64,000 bases of DNA from an uncultured Verrucomicrobiota bacterium (GCA_937872895.1 CALMUP010000015.1:1-64000); one strand, 5' to 3'. Numbered from the stretch's first letter, positions 55,411-64,000 are shown. Made by a program: numbers and translations. Notes: a model not told the origin generated them from the letters alone.

Positions 55411-55631
55411 CGCCGGCCGATCCGCAGCATCGACAGGATATAGTAGGCGGCGAACACCGCCACCATCACGCCCATGCACAGGAACGAACGTTGCGACCAG
55501 GCTTGCTGGGCCGCCGGATCGGCAGCCTTGCGGGCGGCCAGCATCATCAACATTCCGGCGAAGCCGAAGCCGTAGGCGATCCACCGGAGCCTCCGGACCC
55601 ATGCGGCCAATTGGTCGTCGAGGCGGCTCAC
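55407..55631 (-). CDS. Small membrane protein, 74 aa
   Basis: Starts MSRLDDQLAAWVRRLRW, with two membrane segments (IAYGFGFAGMLMMLAA and SFLCMGVMVAVFAAYYILSML) and an Arg-rich end. No family recognised. It overlaps the helicase gene upstream and the EamA gene downstream by 4 bp each, which strongly supports translation. Confidence 0.75.
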   Translation of the reverse strand: MSRLDDQLAAWVRRLRWIAYGFGFAGMLMMLAARKAADPAAQQAWSQRSFLCMGVMVAVFAAYYILSMLRIGRR

Positions 55632-58600
55632 AGCTGCAGCAGGTCCTGGACATCCTCCCAGGACAGGCTGCGGATGATGTCGACATCGGCGGAGAGGGTG
55701 GCGTCGATGACCGAGCGTTTGCGCTTCTGCAGTTCCAGCACCTTTTCCTCGATGCTGTCACGGGTGATCAGCTTCACGTTGTACACCGTCTTGTGCTGGC
55801 CGATACGGTGGGCACGGTCGGTGGCCTGGTCCTCGACGGCCGGGTTCCACCACGGATCAAAGTGGATGACCATGTCCGCGCCGGTCAGGTTCAGGCCGGT
55901 GCCGCCCGCCTTGAGGCTGATCAGGAACAGCGGGATCGAATCGGTCTCGTTGAACTTCTGCACTTCCTCCCACCGGTGCACGGTCGAACCGTCGAGGTAG
56001 CAGTACGGGGTCTTCCGCTTGTTCAACTCGTCGCGGATGATGTGCAGCATCGACACGAACTGGCTGAACACCAGCACGCGGTGGCCGCCATCCATCGCCT
56101 CGTCGAGCAACTCCATGAACAGGTCGAGTTTGCCGGACGGATTCTTCGACTGGAGTTCCGGCATCTTGAGCAGGTCGAGGTGGCAGCAGACCTGGCGCAG
56201 CCGGGTGAGGGTCTTCAGGATCATGAAGCGCGACCGGGTGAAGCCCTGCGAGGTGACCATGCCGACGATCTGGCGCGAGGTGCTTTCCAGCAACTGGCGG
56301 TACACCGCGCGCTGGTCGGGGGTCATCGTACAGTAGGCGATCCGGTCGATCCGCTCCGGCAGTTCCTTCGCGACATCGCGCTTGAGGCGGCGCAGCAGGA
56401 ACGGATGCACCTTCTGGCGCAGGCGCTGCTGGACCTGTTGCGACTGGGTACTGCCGGCGGCGATCGGCATCTCGTAGGCGCGGCGGAAGTGCTGGTGGTG
56501 GCCGAGGTAGCCGGGCATCAGGAAATCGACGATCGACCAGAGGTCGGTCACCCCGTTCTCCACCGGCGTACCGGTCAGGACGAGGCGGTGAACGGCCCGC
56601 AGCTTCTTCGCCGCGCGGGCGTTCTGGGTCGAGTGGTTCTTGATGTGCTGGGCCTCGTCGAGGATCGCCACCGAGAATTCCTGCCGGTGGTAGTGCTCGA
56701 TGTCGCGGCGCAACAGGGCGTAGGAGGTGATGATCAGGTCGGCCTTGTCGAGCTGGTCGAGCGCCTTCTTGCGGTCCTGCCCGTGGATGACATGGACGCG
56801 CAGGTCGGGGGTGAAGCGGCGCGATTCCTCGGCCCAGTTCTCCAGCAGGCTGGTCGGACAGACCACGATGGCCGGCTTGTTGCGGGCGCGCGGATCAACC
56901 CGCTCAAGGGTCAGCCACGCCAGGGCCTGGATGGTCTTGCCCAAACCCATCTCGTCGGCGAGGATGCCGCAGAAACCGCAGCGCTCGAGGAAGCGGAGCC
57001 AGCTCACGCCCTCCTTCTGGTAGCCGCGCATGATCTTTTCGAGGAACGCCGACAGGCTCACCGGCTCCATGGTCACTTCGCGGTTCTGGGCACTGGCGAT
57101 GTGGCTGAAGGCGTCGTTGCCCGACCATTTCACATTGGAGAGGGCCGAGACGGAATTGCGGATGAAGCCGGCGTGGATGGCGTCGAGCCGGTGGCCGCTG
57201 TGACCGATCGCGCCCTTGTGGTCGCACTCGTCGAGGATGTCCTGCAGGGTCTGCATGTTGTGCCGGTCCATCAGCCAGATGCGATCCCCCTGCTGCACGC
57301 AGCCATCGCCCTTGAGCAACGCGGCCTGGATCAGGGCGGGATCGAGGGTCTGGCCTTCGGAGTCGCGGAAGGTCAGGTTGCAATCGAACCAGCCCTCCCC
57401 GCCCGAGGCCTTGCATTCCACCTCCGGCACGATCCAGGAGACGCCCTGCTTCAGGGCCTCGAGCCAGCCCTCGAAGGCGATCTGCCACCCCCGGCCCTTC
57501 AGCGCAGGCAGGACGGTGGCGAGGATATCCATGATCGACTGGGCCCCATCGACGACGATCTCGCCATCGGCCCGCAGGTGGGTCGCCACGCGCTGGCGAA
57601 GCCAGGCCAGCGCCTGCTGCTCCTGCTCGAGGTCGCGGCGCAGGTAGCGGAGGTGGTCCTTGCGGTCGGGGGTACAGTACGGAGGCTCGCTGTCGGGCGA
57701 CCCGGCCAGCGGACCGGGCAAGCCGTCGTAATCGGCATGCAGCAGGATACGCATCCGCTCGTAGTCGCCGGACAACACGACGCGGAAGTCCGGGGTGCCG
57801 ATACCCCAGGCGATCCTGTCCTGCGGAAAGTTGTGCTCGATCAGCCAGCTCTTTTCCAAGTGCGGGAACTGCTGGTGCAGGAACGGCATGATCTCGACGC
57901 GGGGAATGCGCATCGGACCTTCGTACAAGGCATGGAAGTCGCGCGGCAGGGCCGAGGCGAGACGGCGGATCGTTCCTTTCCAGTGGATGTAGGCGGCGTT
58001 GTTGCCCGGCAGGATGGACCGTTCCTTCTTCCCGCTCTTCGGCCAGTCCATGTCGAGGGTGAGCAGGAGGTCTCCGGAATCCTCGTCCAGCGAGGTGGAC
58101 AACATCGGCACGACCGGGGAGGCATCGAAGGCGAGGTACCCGTTGGTTTCGCCATCGTACAGGACATCGGCCGGGGTGAGGTCGAGCAGCTCGATGAAGT
58201 CATCGACGGTGACCGCGGCCTGTCCCTTCATGGGCAGGCCGACGATGTCCTCGATGCAGTACAGGACTTCCTCCTGCTCGGGAGCGAAGGCGAAGGGAAC
58301 CTCGACCGGGGCCTTGTCGATCCGGGTCTTCTTGTCGCGGTAATGGACCCAGACCGAGATCGGCAGCACACCGGCCGGGGCGGATGCCCGCCAACCGGTC
58401 TCGAGCTTGATCCGCAACTGGGCGGGCTGGACATGCGGGGCCTTGACCGGGGAGCGGCGGATGCAGCCGTATTCGACACCGGTCCGGGCGTGCTTCTCGC
58501 GGCGCTTCTGGATGCGCATCGAGCGGTCGGTCCGGCTGTCCGAGAAGGCGTTGACGTAGGCGAACCCGAGGGCCATGGCGTGGGCGCAGACCAGGCCGCG

Positions 58601-58870
58601 CTCGCGCGAGTCGCGGCACGGGCACAGGTTCTCGATTGATCCGTCCTTGAGGATCTTGAACCGCGTCACCATGTCGCGCGAACCGAAGTTCAGGACCGCA
58701 CGCACGATATTGCCCTCGCACTCCATCCGGGTCACCGCACCCGATTCGAACAGGCGTTTCCCCTCCTGGTGCTGGTGCGGACCGGACCACTTCACCAGCG
58801 AGTCGCGGTTGATGTACAGGCCGCTGACCGGCTGGTTCGGGTCGGATTGTTGAATGGTTGACGGATTCAT
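55628..58870 (-). CDS. SNF2-family helicase with SWIM zinc finger
   Basis: A 1080-aa protein. SWIM finger CPCRDSRERGLVCAH (about residues 78-95). A long middle part, then the SNF2 ATPase: DEMGLGKTIQALAWL (Walker A, about 640), PTSLLENWAEES, LDEAQHIKN (DEAQ box), VLTGTPVEN, and the C-terminal lobe with VLVFSQF, SLKAGGTGLNLTGADMVIHFDPWWNPAVEDQATDRAHRIGQ. DNA translocase of the bacterial RapA/HepA-related SNF2 group; role in DNA repair or transcription is not assignable. Start could also be the TTG 6 bases upstream. Confidence 0.92.
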   Translation of the reverse strand: MNPSTIQQSDPNQPVSGLYINRDSLVKWSGPHQHQEGKRLFESGAVTRMECEGNIVRAVLNFGSRDMVTRFKILKDGSIENLCPCRDSRERGLVCAHAMALGFAYVNAFSDSRTDRSMRIQKRREKHARTGVEYGCIRRSPVKAPHVQPAQLRIKLETGWRASAPAGVLPISVWVHYRDKKTRIDKAPVEVPFAFAPEQEEVLYCIEDIVGLPMKGQAAVTVDDFIELLDLTPADVLYDGETNGYLAFDASPVVPMLSTSLDEDSGDLLLTLDMDWPKSGKKERSILPGNNAAYIHWKGTIRRLASALPRDFHALYEGPMRIPRVEIMPFLHQQFPHLEKSWLIEHNFPQDRIAWGIGTPDFRVVLSGDYERMRILLHADYDGLPGPLAGSPDSEPPYCTPDRKDHLRYLRRDLEQEQQALAWLRQRVATHLRADGEIVVDGAQSIMDILATVLPALKGRGWQIAFEGWLEALKQGVSWIVPEVECKASGGEGWFDCNLTFRDSEGQTLDPALIQAALLKGDGCVQQGDRIWLMDRHNMQTLQDILDECDHKGAIGHSGHRLDAIHAGFIRNSVSALSNVKWSGNDAFSHIASAQNREVTMEPVSLSAFLEKIMRGYQKEGVSWLRFLERCGFCGILADEMGLGKTIQALAWLTLERVDPRARNKPAIVVCPTSLLENWAEESRRFTPDLRVHVIHGQDRKKALDQLDKADLIITSYALLRRDIEHYHRQEFSVAILDEAQHIKNHSTQNARAAKKLRAVHRLVLTGTPVENGVTDLWSIVDFLMPGYLGHHQHFRRAYEMPIAAGSTQSQQVQQRLRQKVHPFLLRRLKRDVAKELPERIDRIAYCTMTPDQRAVYRQLLESTSRQIVGMVTSQGFTRSRFMILKTLTRLRQVCCHLDLLKMPELQSKNPSGKLDLFMELLDEAMDGGHRVLVFSQFVSMLHIIRDELNKRKTPYCYLDGSTVHRWEEVQKFNETDSIPLFLISLKAGGTGLNLTGADMVIHFDPWWNPAVEDQATDRAHRIGQHKTVYNVKLITRDSIEEKVLELQKRKRSVIDATLSADVDIIRSLSWEDVQDLLQL

Positions 58871-58943
58871 GGGCAACGAAACAGCCTAACCCAGACGGCT
58901 CCCGGTTCCAAGCGATTCCGGCAAAAAAGCGGCAGAACCGCGC

Positions 58944-60014
58944 TTACCGGCGAACCGCTTCAACCAGCATGCGGTAGGTGGCATCGAGTTCGCCGGGCAC
59001 GATGCGGCATCCGGGCACATCCACCATGGCCAGCCGAGCAGCCGCCCAGACCCGCCCCTCGCCTATGACCATCGACAAGGCGCGCCCGTTCAAGGTGTGG
59101 GCCAGCAACGCAGACACCCGATCCGCACCGGCCAATGCGGACATGACCGGGGACTGCTGGAAATCCGGGCGGCGGCGCGGCCCGTCGTGCCACCCCCCGT
59201 AACGGGCACCAACGCCGTGCAGCGCGGCGGCGACCTGGCCGGCCGACACCGGCGTCGGGCACCGGATGCGCCACCAGGGCGGACCGTCCGGGTGCGGCAG
59301 GACCTGCCACGACGGACACTGCACCCGCCAGGCATTGATCCACCCGCGGTCGCGACCGGGAACCTCGAACTCGGCCGTGTGCCATCCTTCGCTCTCCCGG
59401 TGCGACGGGTCGACCGGCCATTCCAACAGCGCCACGCCCGCGAGCGCAAGCGACGTTTCGCCCGACGCAGCATCCACAGGCACGATGTGCTTCCGCTCAT
59501 CGAGGTCGAGCGTCGGGGGCGGATGCCCGGCCACCCCCGCCAGCGCAAGGCTGTCCGGACGCACCGCCATGGCACGTGGCCACGCGCGCAGGCCACCGGT
59601 GGCGAGGTCCCAGCCTCCCGCCTCGTCCGACCACACCTCGCCCCCGCAGACCCGGTGCCGTAACGACAGCGTGGTCTTGCCGCATCCGGAATCCGCCACC
59701 ACGAGCAACGCCCGTCCATCGATCCGCCACACCGCGCCATGCCAGAGCAGATGGGATGTCACGGAAGTCAGGATGTCGTTCTGCACCACCTCCTGCAACC
59801 GGGCCATGATCGAGCCCGGGCCCGGATCCCTCATCTGGCCGTTGACGGTGAGCACACCGTCCGCTGCGACGTCCACCCGGTGCTCGCGTGTTGCGGGCGC
59901 CAAATCCGGATCCGCCATCGCGCCGTACAGCAGGTTCCACGCGGCACGGACCGACGGCGGGGCATTGAGCCGAACCCGCTGATCGAAGAACCGGTACGTG
60001 TCAGGAGCGTGCAT
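58944..60014 (-). CDS. HprK-related P-loop kinase-like protein
   Basis: A 356-aa protein with features of HPr kinase-related proteins: beta-rich N-terminus, VWRIDGRALLVVADSGCGKTTLSLRH (P-loop, about residue 105) and GGEVWSDEAGGWDL (DE of the second motif). The catalytic loop of true HprK is not evident. Proteins of this type are found with PqqD-like and peptidase genes in peptide-modification clusters. It overlaps the S26-like peptidase gene by 14 bp. Substrate unknown. Confidence 0.7.
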   Translation of the reverse strand: MHAPDTYRFFDQRVRLNAPPSVRAAWNLLYGAMADPDLAPATREHRVDVAADGVLTVNGQMRDPGPGSIMARLQEVVQNDILTSVTSHLLWHGAVWRIDGRALLVVADSGCGKTTLSLRHRVCGGEVWSDEAGGWDLATGGLRAWPRAMAVRPDSLALAGVAGHPPPTLDLDERKHIVPVDAASGETSLALAGVALLEWPVDPSHRESEGWHTAEFEVPGRDRGWINAWRVQCPSWQVLPHPDGPPWWRIRCPTPVSAGQVAAALHGVGARYGGWHDGPRRRPDFQQSPVMSALAGADRVSALLAHTLNGRALSMVIGEGRVWAAARLAMVDVPGCRIVPGELDATYRMLVEAVRR

Positions 60015-60489
60015 GGGGTCGGTGCAACAGGGCTTTGGTGGCACGAAGCATCCGGGCCAGGCACGGTGACGCACGCAACCGGCGCGGCACCCACGGGAGC
60101 ATCCGGCGCTCGAGGCGGGCCAGGATCCGGGCCGCGGCGGGTACGAGCGGGACAGGCTGATCGTTGATCGCGACAAGCACGCCGATCACGGCATCGCGGC
60201 TGATCCAGGAGCCGCGCGTTACCGCATCGCCCTGTTCGTAGAAAGGAAGGGTGCGCAACGGGTCGATCTCGACCAGGCGATGCACCACGGCGTCTCCGTC
60301 GCGCAGGAACAACACGATCTGGCCCGGCTGCAGGTCCGACGGCTCGCCGCACCGGATGCGCAGCCGGTCGCCGGCCCGGATCAGCGGCAACATGCTCATT
60401 CCCTGCGCGGCCAGGGTCAATTCCATCCCGGACGCGCGAAGCAGCGCGGGTTCAAGCGGACGTTGGCCGGATGAAGCCGATGCGGTCAT
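60001..60489 (-). CDS. S24/S26-type serine peptidase-like protein
   Basis: A 162-aa protein. TLAAQGMSMLPLIRAGDRLRI places the nucleophile at Ser32, and GQIVLFLRDGDAVVHRLVEI gives His70 where bacterial signal peptidases have Lys. A Ser-His pair is typical of the archaeal/eukaryotic signal-peptidase (Sec11) subtype. No membrane anchor is visible. Overlaps the upstream secreted-protein gene by 4 bp and the HprK-like gene by 14 bp. Could process a peptide made or sensed by its neighbours; this is inference. Confidence 0.75.
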   Translation of the reverse strand: MTASASSGQRPLEPALLRASGMELTLAAQGMSMLPLIRAGDRLRIRCGEPSDLQPGQIVLFLRDGDAVVHRLVEIDPLRTLPFYEQGDAVTRGSWISRDAVIGVLVAINDQPVPLVPAAARILARLERRMLPWVPRRLRASPCLARMLRATKALLHRPHARS

Positions 60490-61277
60490 GGTGCAAACCG
60501 GATCCGGTAATACTGGGCGGTGGTGGTCGCCGCGGCGTTGGTGAAGGCAAGGGAGAGATCAACCGCACCGGCCGTCTGCTCGCCGAGCATGCTCCAAGGT
60601 CCCGCAAGCTGGCTGGCCGCCTCGACAGCGTACCGGGCGTGCGGGGCCGCCGTCCACTGGAACACCTCCTGGCCGGCCACGCCGGACCACGCCTCGATGG
60701 CCAAGGTTCCGGTCTCTCCGAGTCCGGCGAGGTAGCGATCGCGGTCGGAATAGTCCGGCCCCAACCGGAACGACGACGCATCGGCGTTGGTGATCGCGCC
60801 AAACGTGGCCAGCTCCCACGCATCGGCGATGCCATCCCCGTCGGCATCGTTCGTGGCCGGGACCGTCCACACCGCGACCTGGTAGCTGCCGGTGGTGAAC
60901 TGGAACATCGGCGTCACACGCAGGAACCAGCGACCGGCGGTGCCGGGATTGGTCCACGTCATCTGCGCCGGCGCGGAAGCGTGCACGGTATTGGTGGTGG
61001 CCATCCGCGGCGTGCCCAGCGGCGGCACCACCTCGACCCGCAGGTCCCACACCGTCGAGGTGGCGATGCGGATGATGTAGCTCCACTGCGGAAGGACCGG
61101 AAACGAGAAGACATCCCGGTCGGCCCGCTGTTCGAACACGCCGGACACCAGGTTGCTGATCCCGTTCAACGCGGTGGCCCGGGACGGATCATTGCCGTGG
61201 TCATCGGATAGCTGGGCGAAGGCCGGGGACAGCACCGAGAACGCAACGGCAAGGAGGATGGCGAGTCGGCGGATCAT
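60486..61277 (-). CDS. Secreted protein with PPC-like domain and Ca-binding loop
   Basis: A 263-aa protein with a signal peptide (RLAILLAVAFSVLSPAFA). DDHGNDPSRATALNGISNLVSGVFEQRADRDVFSFPV is a pre-peptidase C-terminal (PPC) type domain, and DADGDGIADAWEL is a thrombospondin-3/dockerin-like Ca-binding loop. The C-terminal 90 residues are a beta domain ending AQYYRIRFAP, a style seen in verrucomicrobial exoproteins. It overlaps the C25 peptidase gene by 4 bp. Confidence 0.82.
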   Translation of the reverse strand: MIRRLAILLAVAFSVLSPAFAQLSDDHGNDPSRATALNGISNLVSGVFEQRADRDVFSFPVLPQWSYIIRIATSTVWDLRVEVVPPLGTPRMATTNTVHASAPAQMTWTNPGTAGRWFLRVTPMFQFTTGSYQVAVWTVPATNDADGDGIADAWELATFGAITNADASSFRLGPDYSDRDRYLAGLGETGTLAIEAWSGVAGQEVFQWTAAPHARYAVEAASQLAGPWSMLGEQTAGAVDLSLAFTNAAATTTAQYYRIRFAP

Positions 61278-64000
61278 GGCGGAACGCCCCCCCAGATCCG
61301 TTGCGCGGGATCCCCGAAGATGGAATAGAACAGGAGTTCGCGGGCGAACGGGGATTGCGACCATAGCCGAAGGTGCGCCGCGGCCATGGCTTCGCCGAGG
61401 CGGGGGACCCGGTCCACCGCGAAGGCCTGGTAAAAGCCATCGGCCAACCGCTCCGCGTTGTTCTGGATCGAGATGGCCGTCGGAGCGATGCAGGAACTGC
61501 CGCAGGCGATCGAGGTCACGATGGATTCGGCCAGCGACTTGGTGCCTGGTTCGTGGAAGGCGCCGCTGCGGCAGGTGAACACGGTAAAGATCGGGTACAC
61601 CGTGTTGCTGCGCGCCTCGGCATCGACGCGGTTCCAGACCCCGCTCACCACCACGTCCGACCAGGTGAAGATCCCGCCGTGGCCCATGTAGTTGACCACC
61701 TGCCCACCCCCCTGGATGAAGGCATTGATCTCGTTGCGCACCTGTGCCGGCGGTTTGTCGCTGATGTACGAAGTGGCGATACCGAACTGCGCGTTGAATC
61801 CGCCGTTGGTCAGGTGACGGAAGGTATTGGTCTGGGTGAATTGCTTGAAGACAAACACGTTCGAGACCTCGTTGGTGTCGGCGACCAGGAGGGCCGACTT
61901 GAACCAGCCGCTGTTGGTGGGTGCGGTCTCGTAGGCGCGCAACTTGGTGAAGAAACGCTCGACGTCGACCGCGTTGGTCGCCGGCAAGCGCCCGAGCATC
62001 AGGTCGGGAAGACGGTCGGGTTGTCCGTCGAGGTCCACCCCGTTGACGGTGACAAACCACTGGTCGAGGGCGGTGCGGGCGGTGGTGGAGTAGCCCTGGA
62101 CGGTGGGAACGAAATCGCGGTCGCTGTGGCGGGTGCGTTTGGTCGGATCAAAGGATCCGTTGCCGACCAGCACGGCATAGGCCGGCCGGGGCATGGCGTA
62201 GTGGTGGTAGGCATAACCGATGTACTGGCGGATGGCGGCGGGATCGACGATGCCGTAACTGAACTCGTGGTAGATATCGTCCGGTGTGGCGACCTGTACC
62301 TCCAGCCGGTCGCGTTGCCGGTGTTTCATCCACCGGTAGGCGGGGATCTGGAACTCGATCGGTACCACGGCCAGGTAATCGGCGCGGCGTTGCCGATCGG
62401 CGAGGTTGAGGAAGTCCACCCGGGTCAGCGATGCGACGGCCGCGGTTGATGCGGCATCAAACACGGCGAGGCACCGGTCGGTGGTGCCGGTGGTGGCGAA
62501 GGACAGGGTCCATGAAGGTCCGGCGTTACTGAACACCAGATCGACGAGGCGCACCGGCGCACGTGGTTCGGTGATGTCGAGCACCACGACGTTGGTGGAG
62601 GCGAGCGAACGGATCCGCACCGTGGCCTGGGTGCCGGGAACCCGGATGTACTGGGGCAGGTTGGAGGCGGTCAGGTGTGTGGGATAGGCCAGTTGCAACG
62701 ACTCGATCAGGGCGGTTGCGTAACTGGGAATGAGGACCCCGGCGGGCACCTGCTGTGACACGGCGATCGTGGTGAGCGCACTGGTGATCAAGGCGGCATT
62801 GGTGACGATCGTGCCGGCCACCTGTGTCTCGCCGGTATAGGTCAGCGTCGCCACGGACTGGTTGTTGATGCGCAGGATGGTCCGGTGGTCGGGGCCGGTA
62901 AAGTTTGTATCGAACAGGCTGTAATCGCGAAATCCGCGGAACGAGTAGGACAGGTGGAGCGCGCCCGAACCGGAGGCGTTCGGCGTGGCGAATGGCAGAT
63001 TGGATTGCGTCCCGCCCTGCACGCGGTACACGAACCAGTGATCAAAGGAGTCGTCGAGCGGCTGGTAGTTGGCGAGGTAGAAGTTGGTGGTGTTGAGATC
63101 GATCCGCTGCAAGGCGGTGGTGACGATCCCCCACCCAGGCACCGGCGCGGCGGCACGGGTGGGCAGCTCCGGCGATGGCAAACCGATCGACAACCAGTAC
63201 ACATTCTGCGTGGTAAAGGAACTGGCGACCGGTGCGGCATAAAACCGGATCCAGTCGGTCGGACCCATCGGGCCGTGCACCGAACGCTCGAACGGAAGGG
63301 TGCTGGATTGCGTGCTCAAGCGCATCCGCGTGGTGTCCTGTGCTTCGGCAGGCCAGCCAGCCGCAGCGAGCTGCGCACCGGTGATCCGGTACCAACCGGC
63401 GTGGTTGATCGCGATCTTCCAGGCCAGGTCGTTGGTAACCGGACGGCGAGCGGTGAACTCGGCGGGCAAGCCGACACCCGGTATGATCTCCACCGGAATC
63501 GGGACCGGACAATCCGGACAGGCACCTGAAGGGCCTGACACCGATTGCAGGCGCGGTCGGCTGGACGCAGGCACCGGCTGGTCGCTCACCCGGATAACCG
63601 CCCGGATGCGGCTGTAGGTCATCAGGGCATTCGACGCTGGATCAGGCTGGACAGGACGGACCACCACACGGAGAAAGATGCGCTCGCCCATGGCACCGAC
63701 GTTGGCCTCGACCAACGGTGCCGGTTCGTGGCACTCGGCACCGGCGGCATCACGGGGTTTGCCGCGCGATTCCGTGATGGAAACAGAGGCCGAGCGGCCA
63801 GCGGGGATTTCCAGCACCCGGACCCAGCCGGGCAGGCAAAGGGCGTTGGGCGCGGATTCGGGAACGGCGTCAGGGAAAACGGGAACAGGCGCATAGCCCG
63901 CGTCGTTGTGCTGCTCCCACGAGCGGATCACCACGTCGAGTTCGAACCGATCCGGAGCCACCGGGTTGAGGGAAAACCGGCTCTCCGCCCGCACCCAGGA
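61274..64000 (-). CDS. C25-family (gingipain-type) cysteine peptidase, 5' partial
   Basis: At least 906 aa, running off the window end, so the start and signal peptide are not seen. The C25 domain lies in the C-terminal half: PAYAVLVGNGSFDPTKRTRHSDRDFVPTVQGYS, DRLPDLMLGRLPATNAVDVERFFTKL, NYMGHGGIFTWSD (catalytic His) and FTVFTCRSGAFHEPGTKSLAES (catalytic Cys), then SIFGDPAQRIWG. The N-terminal half is beta-rich. Probably secreted; it heads a chain of overlapping genes with the PPC protein, S26-like peptidase and HprK-like protein. Confidence 0.88.
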   Translation of the reverse strand, partial: SWVRAESRFSLNPVAPDRFELDVVIRSWEQHNDAGYAPVPVFPDAVPESAPNALCLPGWVRVLEIPAGRSASVSITESRGKPRDAAGAECHEPAPLVEANVGAMGERIFLRVVVRPVQPDPASNALMTYSRIRAVIRVSDQPVPASSRPRLQSVSGPSGACPDCPVPIPVEIIPGVGLPAEFTARRPVTNDLAWKIAINHAGWYRITGAQLAAAGWPAEAQDTTRMRLSTQSSTLPFERSVHGPMGPTDWIRFYAAPVASSFTTQNVYWLSIGLPSPELPTRAAAPVPGWGIVTTALQRIDLNTTNFYLANYQPLDDSFDHWFVYRVQGGTQSNLPFATPNASGSGALHLSYSFRGFRDYSLFDTNFTGPDHRTILRINNQSVATLTYTGETQVAGTIVTNAALITSALTTIAVSQQVPAGVLIPSYATALIESLQLAYPTHLTASNLPQYIRVPGTQATVRIRSLASTNVVVLDITEPRAPVRLVDLVFSNAGPSWTLSFATTGTTDRCLAVFDAASTAAVASLTRVDFLNLADRQRRADYLAVVPIEFQIPAYRWMKHRQRDRLEVQVATPDDIYHEFSYGIVDPAAIRQYIGYAYHHYAMPRPAYAVLVGNGSFDPTKRTRHSDRDFVPTVQGYSTTARTALDQWFVTVNGVDLDGQPDRLPDLMLGRLPATNAVDVERFFTKLRAYETAPTNSGWFKSALLVADTNEVSNVFVFKQFTQTNTFRHLTNGGFNAQFGIATSYISDKPPAQVRNEINAFIQGGGQVVNYMGHGGIFTWSDVVVSGVWNRVDAEARSNTVYPIFTVFTCRSGAFHEPGTKSLAESIVTSIACGSSCIAPTAISIQNNAERLADGFYQAFAVDRVPRLGEAMAAAHLRLWSQSPFARELLFYSIFGDPAQRIWGGVPP

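Follow-up and report, generated by a model that had tools for sequence, protein, structure and literature searches.

Why would a secreted gingipain-type peptidase share a run of overlapping genes with a soluble S26-like protease and an HprK-related protein predicted to stay in the cytoplasm? The question arises at the end of the window, by which we mean the whole stretch of 64,000 nucleotides analysed here, from an uncultured Verrucomicrobiota bacterium; it covers positions 1-64000 of a contig (C15) that runs on to 66686, in a genome assembly of 51 contigs. An earlier note on this DNA described a chain of four genes joined by overlaps of 4, 4 and 14 bp, and the chain is real, with all four open reading frames at that place on the minus strand (Table 1). 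Overlaps of 4 bp are by themselves commonplace in operons; these go beyond chance, since the corresponding genes of a different family, whose proteins are ~36-41% identical, overlap as well (4, 4 and 1 bp). The note also offered, as a hypothesis, the secreted protease as the substrate of the protease/kinase pair, a guess that is probably wrong. We posit, with an even chance of being right, that these genes represent one form of a RiPP-like modification system found throughout Kiritimatiellae and linked there to secreted C25 peptidases and giant proteins of the cell surface.

Table 1. Features of the window, of the contig beyond it and of related loci, with their coordinates.
Feature	Position	Strand	Remarks
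SNF2-family helicase	window 55628-58876		directly downstream of the HprK-like gene
HprK-related kinase-like protein, 356 aa	58944..60014	-	predicted cytoplasmic
Overlap S26-like/HprK-like	60001-60014		14 bp
Soluble S24/S26-like serine protease, 162 aa	60001..60489	-	PF00717 E=6.4e-7
Overlap PPC-like/S26-like	60486-60489		4 bp
Secreted PPC-like/TSP3-loop protein, 263 aa	60486..61277	-	signal-peptide-like N-terminus
Overlap C25/PPC-like	61274-61277		4 bp
Secreted C25 (gingipain/PorU-like) cysteine peptidase	61274 (stop)..64000, start ~64081 in contig numbering	-	
Leader-bearing protein, 146 aa	contig C15 64124-64564 (L003:4125-4565)	-	begins MKKSYSKPRVTRYTREQIAAMIGPAKTQYPPPPPPPPP...
DUF11/SdrD_B giant	contig C15 64582-66684 (L003:4583-6685)	-	runs off contig
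7424-aa open frame	C22 ~33400-55660 (L036 from 3413, L005 to 5660)		ends in C25 domain
Homologue of the window SNF2 helicase	L068:12922-16122		adjoins PqqD
Single ORFs matching S26-like and nucleotidyltransferase models	L068:7356-9122, L070:8398-10551, L072:212-1948, L088:12249-13868		
S26-like fusion protein	L080:1645-2568		
TPR genes beside or fused with PqqD	L067:8685-9665, L016:3141-3854, L146:5775-6557		
Secreted-looking/barrel-like genes after cassette	L076:4742-8092, L094:11578-14774, L103:7278-11536		
Polysaccharide export, glycosyltransferase-like genes	L069:12113-13648, L077:549-4830, L099:5670-11429		

The first of the four products can be assigned to peptidase family C25 from its sequence: the domain (PF01364) scores 207 bits (E=6.7e-61) against a gathering threshold of 23, and the motifs GHG and TCRSG (TCxxG) carry the catalytic His and Cys, in keeping with the gingipain-type identity proposed before. 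Both this protein and the PPC-like one carry Sec-type signal peptides, as predicted from their N-termini. The latter had been described as a secreted PPC/Ca-loop protein; its signal-peptide-like start agrees with secretion, the calcium loop is suggested by weak TSP3_bac matches (E=0.026 in the window protein, 6e-4 in one relative), and 'PPC' is a label of resemblance only, because no Pfam PPC model matched at E<=1 in four homologues. PPC-like homologues adjoin C25 genes in L016, L017, L033 and L004.

The S26-like protein bears out its earlier description as a soluble Ser32/His70 peptidase free of a membrane anchor: it matches PF00717, Ser32, His70 and Asp88 are invariant among its relatives, and the window protein has no hydrophobic segment that could serve as an S26-type anchor. 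Asp88 falls at the place of the GD of Sec11, and an alignment with SEC11C (E=0.0085) recovers the Sec11-type Ser/His/Asp arrangement (GxSM, HR, GD), which is common to Sec11/SipW-type signal peptidases (S26); unlike these, the window protein and most of its relatives are anchorless and stand in a gene context of peptide modification. Its partner can be placed by motifs and predicted fold in the HprK/PEPCK-type P-loop kinase superfamily. It has a P-loop (GxSGxGKT) preceded by His92 and followed by SD130, and H92, S109, G112, K113, T115 and D130 are invariant in 14 homologues; Foldseek retrieved HprK/P and PEP carboxykinase (PEPCK) for its AF2 model (pLDDT 84) at prob 1.00, with low TM-scores. 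The HprK-related identity already noted thus agrees with residues and predicted fold, while the profile match is weak (TIGR04352, E=4.5e-7, 29.3 bits over a partial 75 residues, far under the cut-off of 200). PDB sequence searches with the HprK, C25 and PPC-like queries gave no matches, and a contig scan with the HprK query gave nothing beyond two loci already known.

What lies past position 64000, where PqqD, nucleotidyltransferase or exporter genes had been suggested as partners? Neither a PqqD nor a nucleotidyltransferase gene lies on the contig, whose sequence ends inside a giant gene; the extension revealed that giant and a leader-bearing protein. The 146-aa protein has a leader-like start (YxKPxV...GPxKTQY) and no signal peptide; a proline-rich linker and, in a predicted model of modest confidence, a beta-sandwich domain follow the leader. 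Homologues occur in G291, G290 and G002, and the motif YxKPxxTxYxREEIxxMxGPxKTQY is common to this protein and its G291 homologue, which are 40% identical overall. This candidate substrate was missed by the earlier note because its gene lies past position 64000, and leader-bearing peptides or proteins encoded in or beside such cassettes are better substrate candidates than the C25 peptidase. A recognisable leader, as looked for in a RiPP cluster, is present in the GPxKTQY protein of the block and, in relatives, in a GCK...GS family of short precursors. The giant, visible for its C-terminal 700 residues, lies upstream of the C25 gene and is 43-47% identical to the giants that occupy the corresponding position in G291 and G002.

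The particular HprK protein of the window (E<1e-6) is confined to 3 of the 346 genomes of the class, namely the window genome and two of another family. In G291 the block reads giant, leader protein, C25, PPC, S26-like and HprK-like, with the 4, 4 and 1 bp overlaps, and is faced by genes for a nucleotidyltransferase (PF14907) and a PqqD protein (PF05402); a short contig of G290 holds the giant, leader and C25 genes. PqqD and nucleotidyltransferase genes, predicted as partners, thus exist beside the G291 block and at a second C25/PPC locus of the window genome, on contig C22. That contig encodes an S26-like and an HprK-like protein, a C25 in addition to the one that ends a 7424-aa frame, a giant of DUF11 type, PqqD paired with radical SAM, and a C25-nucleotidyltransferase-PPC run. 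The RRE/PqqD component of a RiPP cluster is accordingly represented by PF05402 in the G291 block and at the C22 locus, and is missing from C15. G002, of the same genus as the window genome, has the giant, leader protein, C25 and PPC genes with no S26/HprK pair alongside; elsewhere it encodes another leader protein (...DIAELMGPVETQYG...), of GPxxTQY type, directly upstream of HprK-like, PqqD-TPR, S26-like and nucleotidyltransferase genes and with no C25, which indicates that leader, kinase, PqqD, protease and nucleotidyltransferase form a set able to stand without C25. The HprK match at C22:31623 could be taken for an ordinary HPr kinase, a reading that we discarded because it has an S26-like neighbour, and further PqqD matches at C9 and at G291:C217 were set aside for their different, non-cassette context.

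Across Kiritimatiellae, the S26-like profile matched at 75 places in 62 of 346 genomes. Among the first 20 loci by S26 score, taken irrespective of context, 16 have an HprK-like gene, 12 PqqD, 11 a radical SAM gene, nine a nucleotidyltransferase and eight a C25; a second batch of 20, picked for nearby C25, was used for gene order only. In many families the genes usually run C25 - PqqD - radical SAM - precursor - HprK-like; C25 immediately precedes PqqD, the S26-like gene is usually convergent, and the nucleotidyltransferase gene comes after it. The precursors, of 50-80 aa and lying between radical SAM and HprK-like genes, form one family (YxKPxI...E-[VT]-L..GCK...GS-COOH): all of 17 sequences keep Y, P, L, E and Cys, and almost all keep the Lys after Cys and the Gly-Ser at the end. 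Their profile gave 49 convincing matches (E<1e-5) in 44 genomes, and in an evenly drawn sample of the phylum all matches fell within Kiritimatiellae; a search of the window genome gave no member. C25 genes lie within 10 kb of at least 31 of the 75 S26-like matches (~0.7 expected) and of at least 29 of the 49 precursor matches (~0.5 expected), where the expectation assumes uniform placement in 3-Mb genomes and is a crude null; the genomes are also related to one another, and no single Poisson figure would give a fair probability. The linkage is nonetheless secure, since it is spread across many families. Indeed, the proposed membership of the S26-like/HprK-like pair in a peptide-modification cassette is upheld by its PqqD, radical SAM, precursor and nucleotidyltransferase neighbours class-wide, and the synteny search once suggested finds the link with C25 to be class-wide as well. 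No exporter is a consistent member among the cassette loci examined. Several single open reading frames match both S26-like and nucleotidyltransferase models, and these fusions support one pathway in common.

A close parallel is offered by the phosphorylated lasso-peptide clusters (paeninodin, pseudomycoidin, bsf), which comprise A, B1 (PqqD), B2, C, K (HprK homologue) and N (nucleotidyltransferase). In these, HprK homologues phosphorylate a precursor Ser – C-terminal in paeninodin – the nucleotidyltransferase puts hexoses on the phosphate, the PqqD-like B1 binds a YxxPxL leader, speeds phosphorylation and assists cleavage, and leader position -2 is usually Thr (PMC8498205, PMC10368454). The Kiritimatiellae cassettes share the HprK-like kinase, the NTP_transf_5-type nucleotidyltransferase, the PqqD-like leader binder and a YxxPxL-like leader, and their short precursors share the C-terminal Ser of paeninodin. 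They differ in having, at the loci inspected, a soluble S24/S26-like protease apparently in place of the transglutaminase-type B2, in the radical SAM enzyme of most clusters, in the linked C25 and, for the window variant, in a leader carried by a folded protein; neither a lasso cyclase (C; macrolactam synthetase) nor a transglutaminase-type B2 was noticed on inspection of the ORFs of the loci read. HPr-rel-A/SynChlorMet cassettes (TIGR04352, TIGR04353, TIGR04249-04251) likewise combine HprK-related, PqqD-like and radical SAM/SPASM proteins, to which matches here are weak and far under the curated cut-offs, whereas C25, the S26-like protease and the precursor family are absent from those models. 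Our literature search found no mention of SynChlorMet or HPr-rel-A, nothing joining Kiritimatiell* with gingipain and, in work on C25/PqqD/radical SAM, no mention of 'peptidase C25'; the pairing of C25 with RiPP-like enzymes has no match in the literature searched, and the gene team reads as a new variant of PqqD/HprK-type cassettes.

How might such a cassette operate? From these likenesses we infer that the PqqD-type protein (on C22 in the window genome, beside the block in G291) would bind the YxKPxV leader in the cytoplasm, that the HprK-like kinase would phosphorylate the substrate, and that the NTP_transf_5 protein, where present, would decorate the phosphate, as in phosphorylated and phosphoglycosylated lasso peptides. 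Kinase action on the short precursors is directly predicted, because enzyme types, kind of leader and nearly invariant terminal Ser are those of the lasso systems. For leader cleavage the soluble Sec11-like protease suggests itself as the candidate, and it may remove the leader in the cytoplasm, possibly between Gln and Tyr of GPxKTQY; a cut before Tyr29 of the window leader would leave Thr27 at -2. In most clusters the substrate would be the short Cys peptide ending in Gly-Ser, on which the radical SAM enzyme would also act; in the window variant, which has no radical SAM gene, a folded beta-domain protein would bear the leader. At the cell surface, the matured product would then act together with the secreted C25 peptidase and the giant DUF11/SdrD protein encoded alongside.

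In favour of this coupled modification system stand the six-gene block in a different family with nucleotidyltransferase and PqqD genes facing it, the C22 loci, the canonical operon in many families, the precursor family, the linkage counts, the GPxxTQY protein upstream of a C25-free cassette and the lasso-type parallels. Against it count the want of PqqD and nucleotidyltransferase genes on C15, a window leader protein that does not end in Ser, the G002 block with no adjoining pair, cassettes free of C25, the lack of a consistent exporter, and HprK-like and S26-like scores under the curated NCBIfam cut-offs. What the genomes do tie together, in a poorly known class, is a lasso-type toolkit with a new precursor family and gingipain/PorU-type proteases and giants; RiPP enzymes are mostly regarded as producers of free small molecules, but a functional link would give the chemistry of peptide modification a part in building the cell surface. 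GCK...GS peptides and GPxKTQY proteins can be offered as named candidate substrates for PqqD, HprK-like and soluble S26-like proteins.

The most interesting option is surface attachment of the modified product, since PorU, a C25 relative, cleaves a signal at the C-terminus and adds a sugar anchor (PMC5445135). The C25 peptidase could then be a sortase or transpeptidase whose substrate, either the modified peptide or the beta-domain protein freed of its leader, is joined to the giant DUF11/SdrD protein or to the cell surface. We consider this rather improbable; if true, it would be a peptide-tagging surface system outside Bacteroidota, its tag made by PqqD/radical SAM/HprK/nucleotidyltransferase chemistry.

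Perhaps the neighbours are simply modular, the cassette making a modified peptide on its own while C25, PPC and giant are co-transcribed or co-regulated and act on a different molecule. We hold this to be unlikely, though a serious contender: cassettes with neither C25 nor PPC occur (L067, L068, L070 and L073) and C25 is found in 151 genomes against 62 for the S26-like gene, but linkage is strong over many families, the order is fixed with C25 next to PqqD, and a leader-bearing protein sits inside the C25 block. The same four loci also speak against direct maturation of C25 or PPC, before export, by the S26-like protease and the HprK-like kinase. They have the pair and neither secreted gene, which is the first of the two observations that the earlier note had named as together refuting its proposal, the other being a lack of upstream partners; the protease as substrate is thereby left unsupported, and the cassette is not dedicated to C25 maturation. 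Gene overlaps kept in two families speak for direct maturation; both secreted proteins carry Sec-type signal peptides, however, and leader-bearing substrates are encoded beside the pair, so we find it clearly improbable.

Could C25 be the type IX secretion sortase PorU itself, with the other genes as unrelated cargo or helpers? PorU is the best NCBIfam match of these C25 proteins, which share with PorU and gingipains the C25 domain, the catalytic His and Cys and a PorU-like N-terminal region; yet the window protein, at 181 bits, falls short of the PorU cut-off of 420 (NF033707), and no further T9SS gene was seen among the loci read, which makes this highly improbable. The C25 proteins here also differ in lying outside Bacteroidota, in their frequent fusion to giant DUF11/SdrD proteins and in having RiPP-type genes as neighbours. 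That the pair is regulatory, a true HPr kinase with a LexA/phage-type S24 repressor, is scarcely credible, for the superfamilies are the same but the class-wide neighbours are PqqD, radical SAM, nucleotidyltransferase and precursor genes, there is no DNA-binding domain, and the S26-like residues match Sec11.

Several further features of these loci deserve mention. The SNF2-family helicase of the window has a close homologue in an HprK/S26-nucleotidyltransferase locus of another family, and such a helicase was seen at these two loci only. TPR genes lie beside PqqD or are fused with it at three cassette loci. One S26-like protease forms a fusion protein that also contains a hydrophobic segment and a domain resembling CarboxypepD_reg/SdrD_B. 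On C22, the 7424-aa frame, very large for a bacterial ORF, also contains a TSP3-like loop and a C-terminal beta domain. In several genomes the genes after the cassette encode a large protein that looks secreted and one resembling an outer-membrane barrel, with the end ...SWNY, and near some cassettes lie polysaccharide export and glycosyltransferase-like genes, possibly the source of sugar for the modification.
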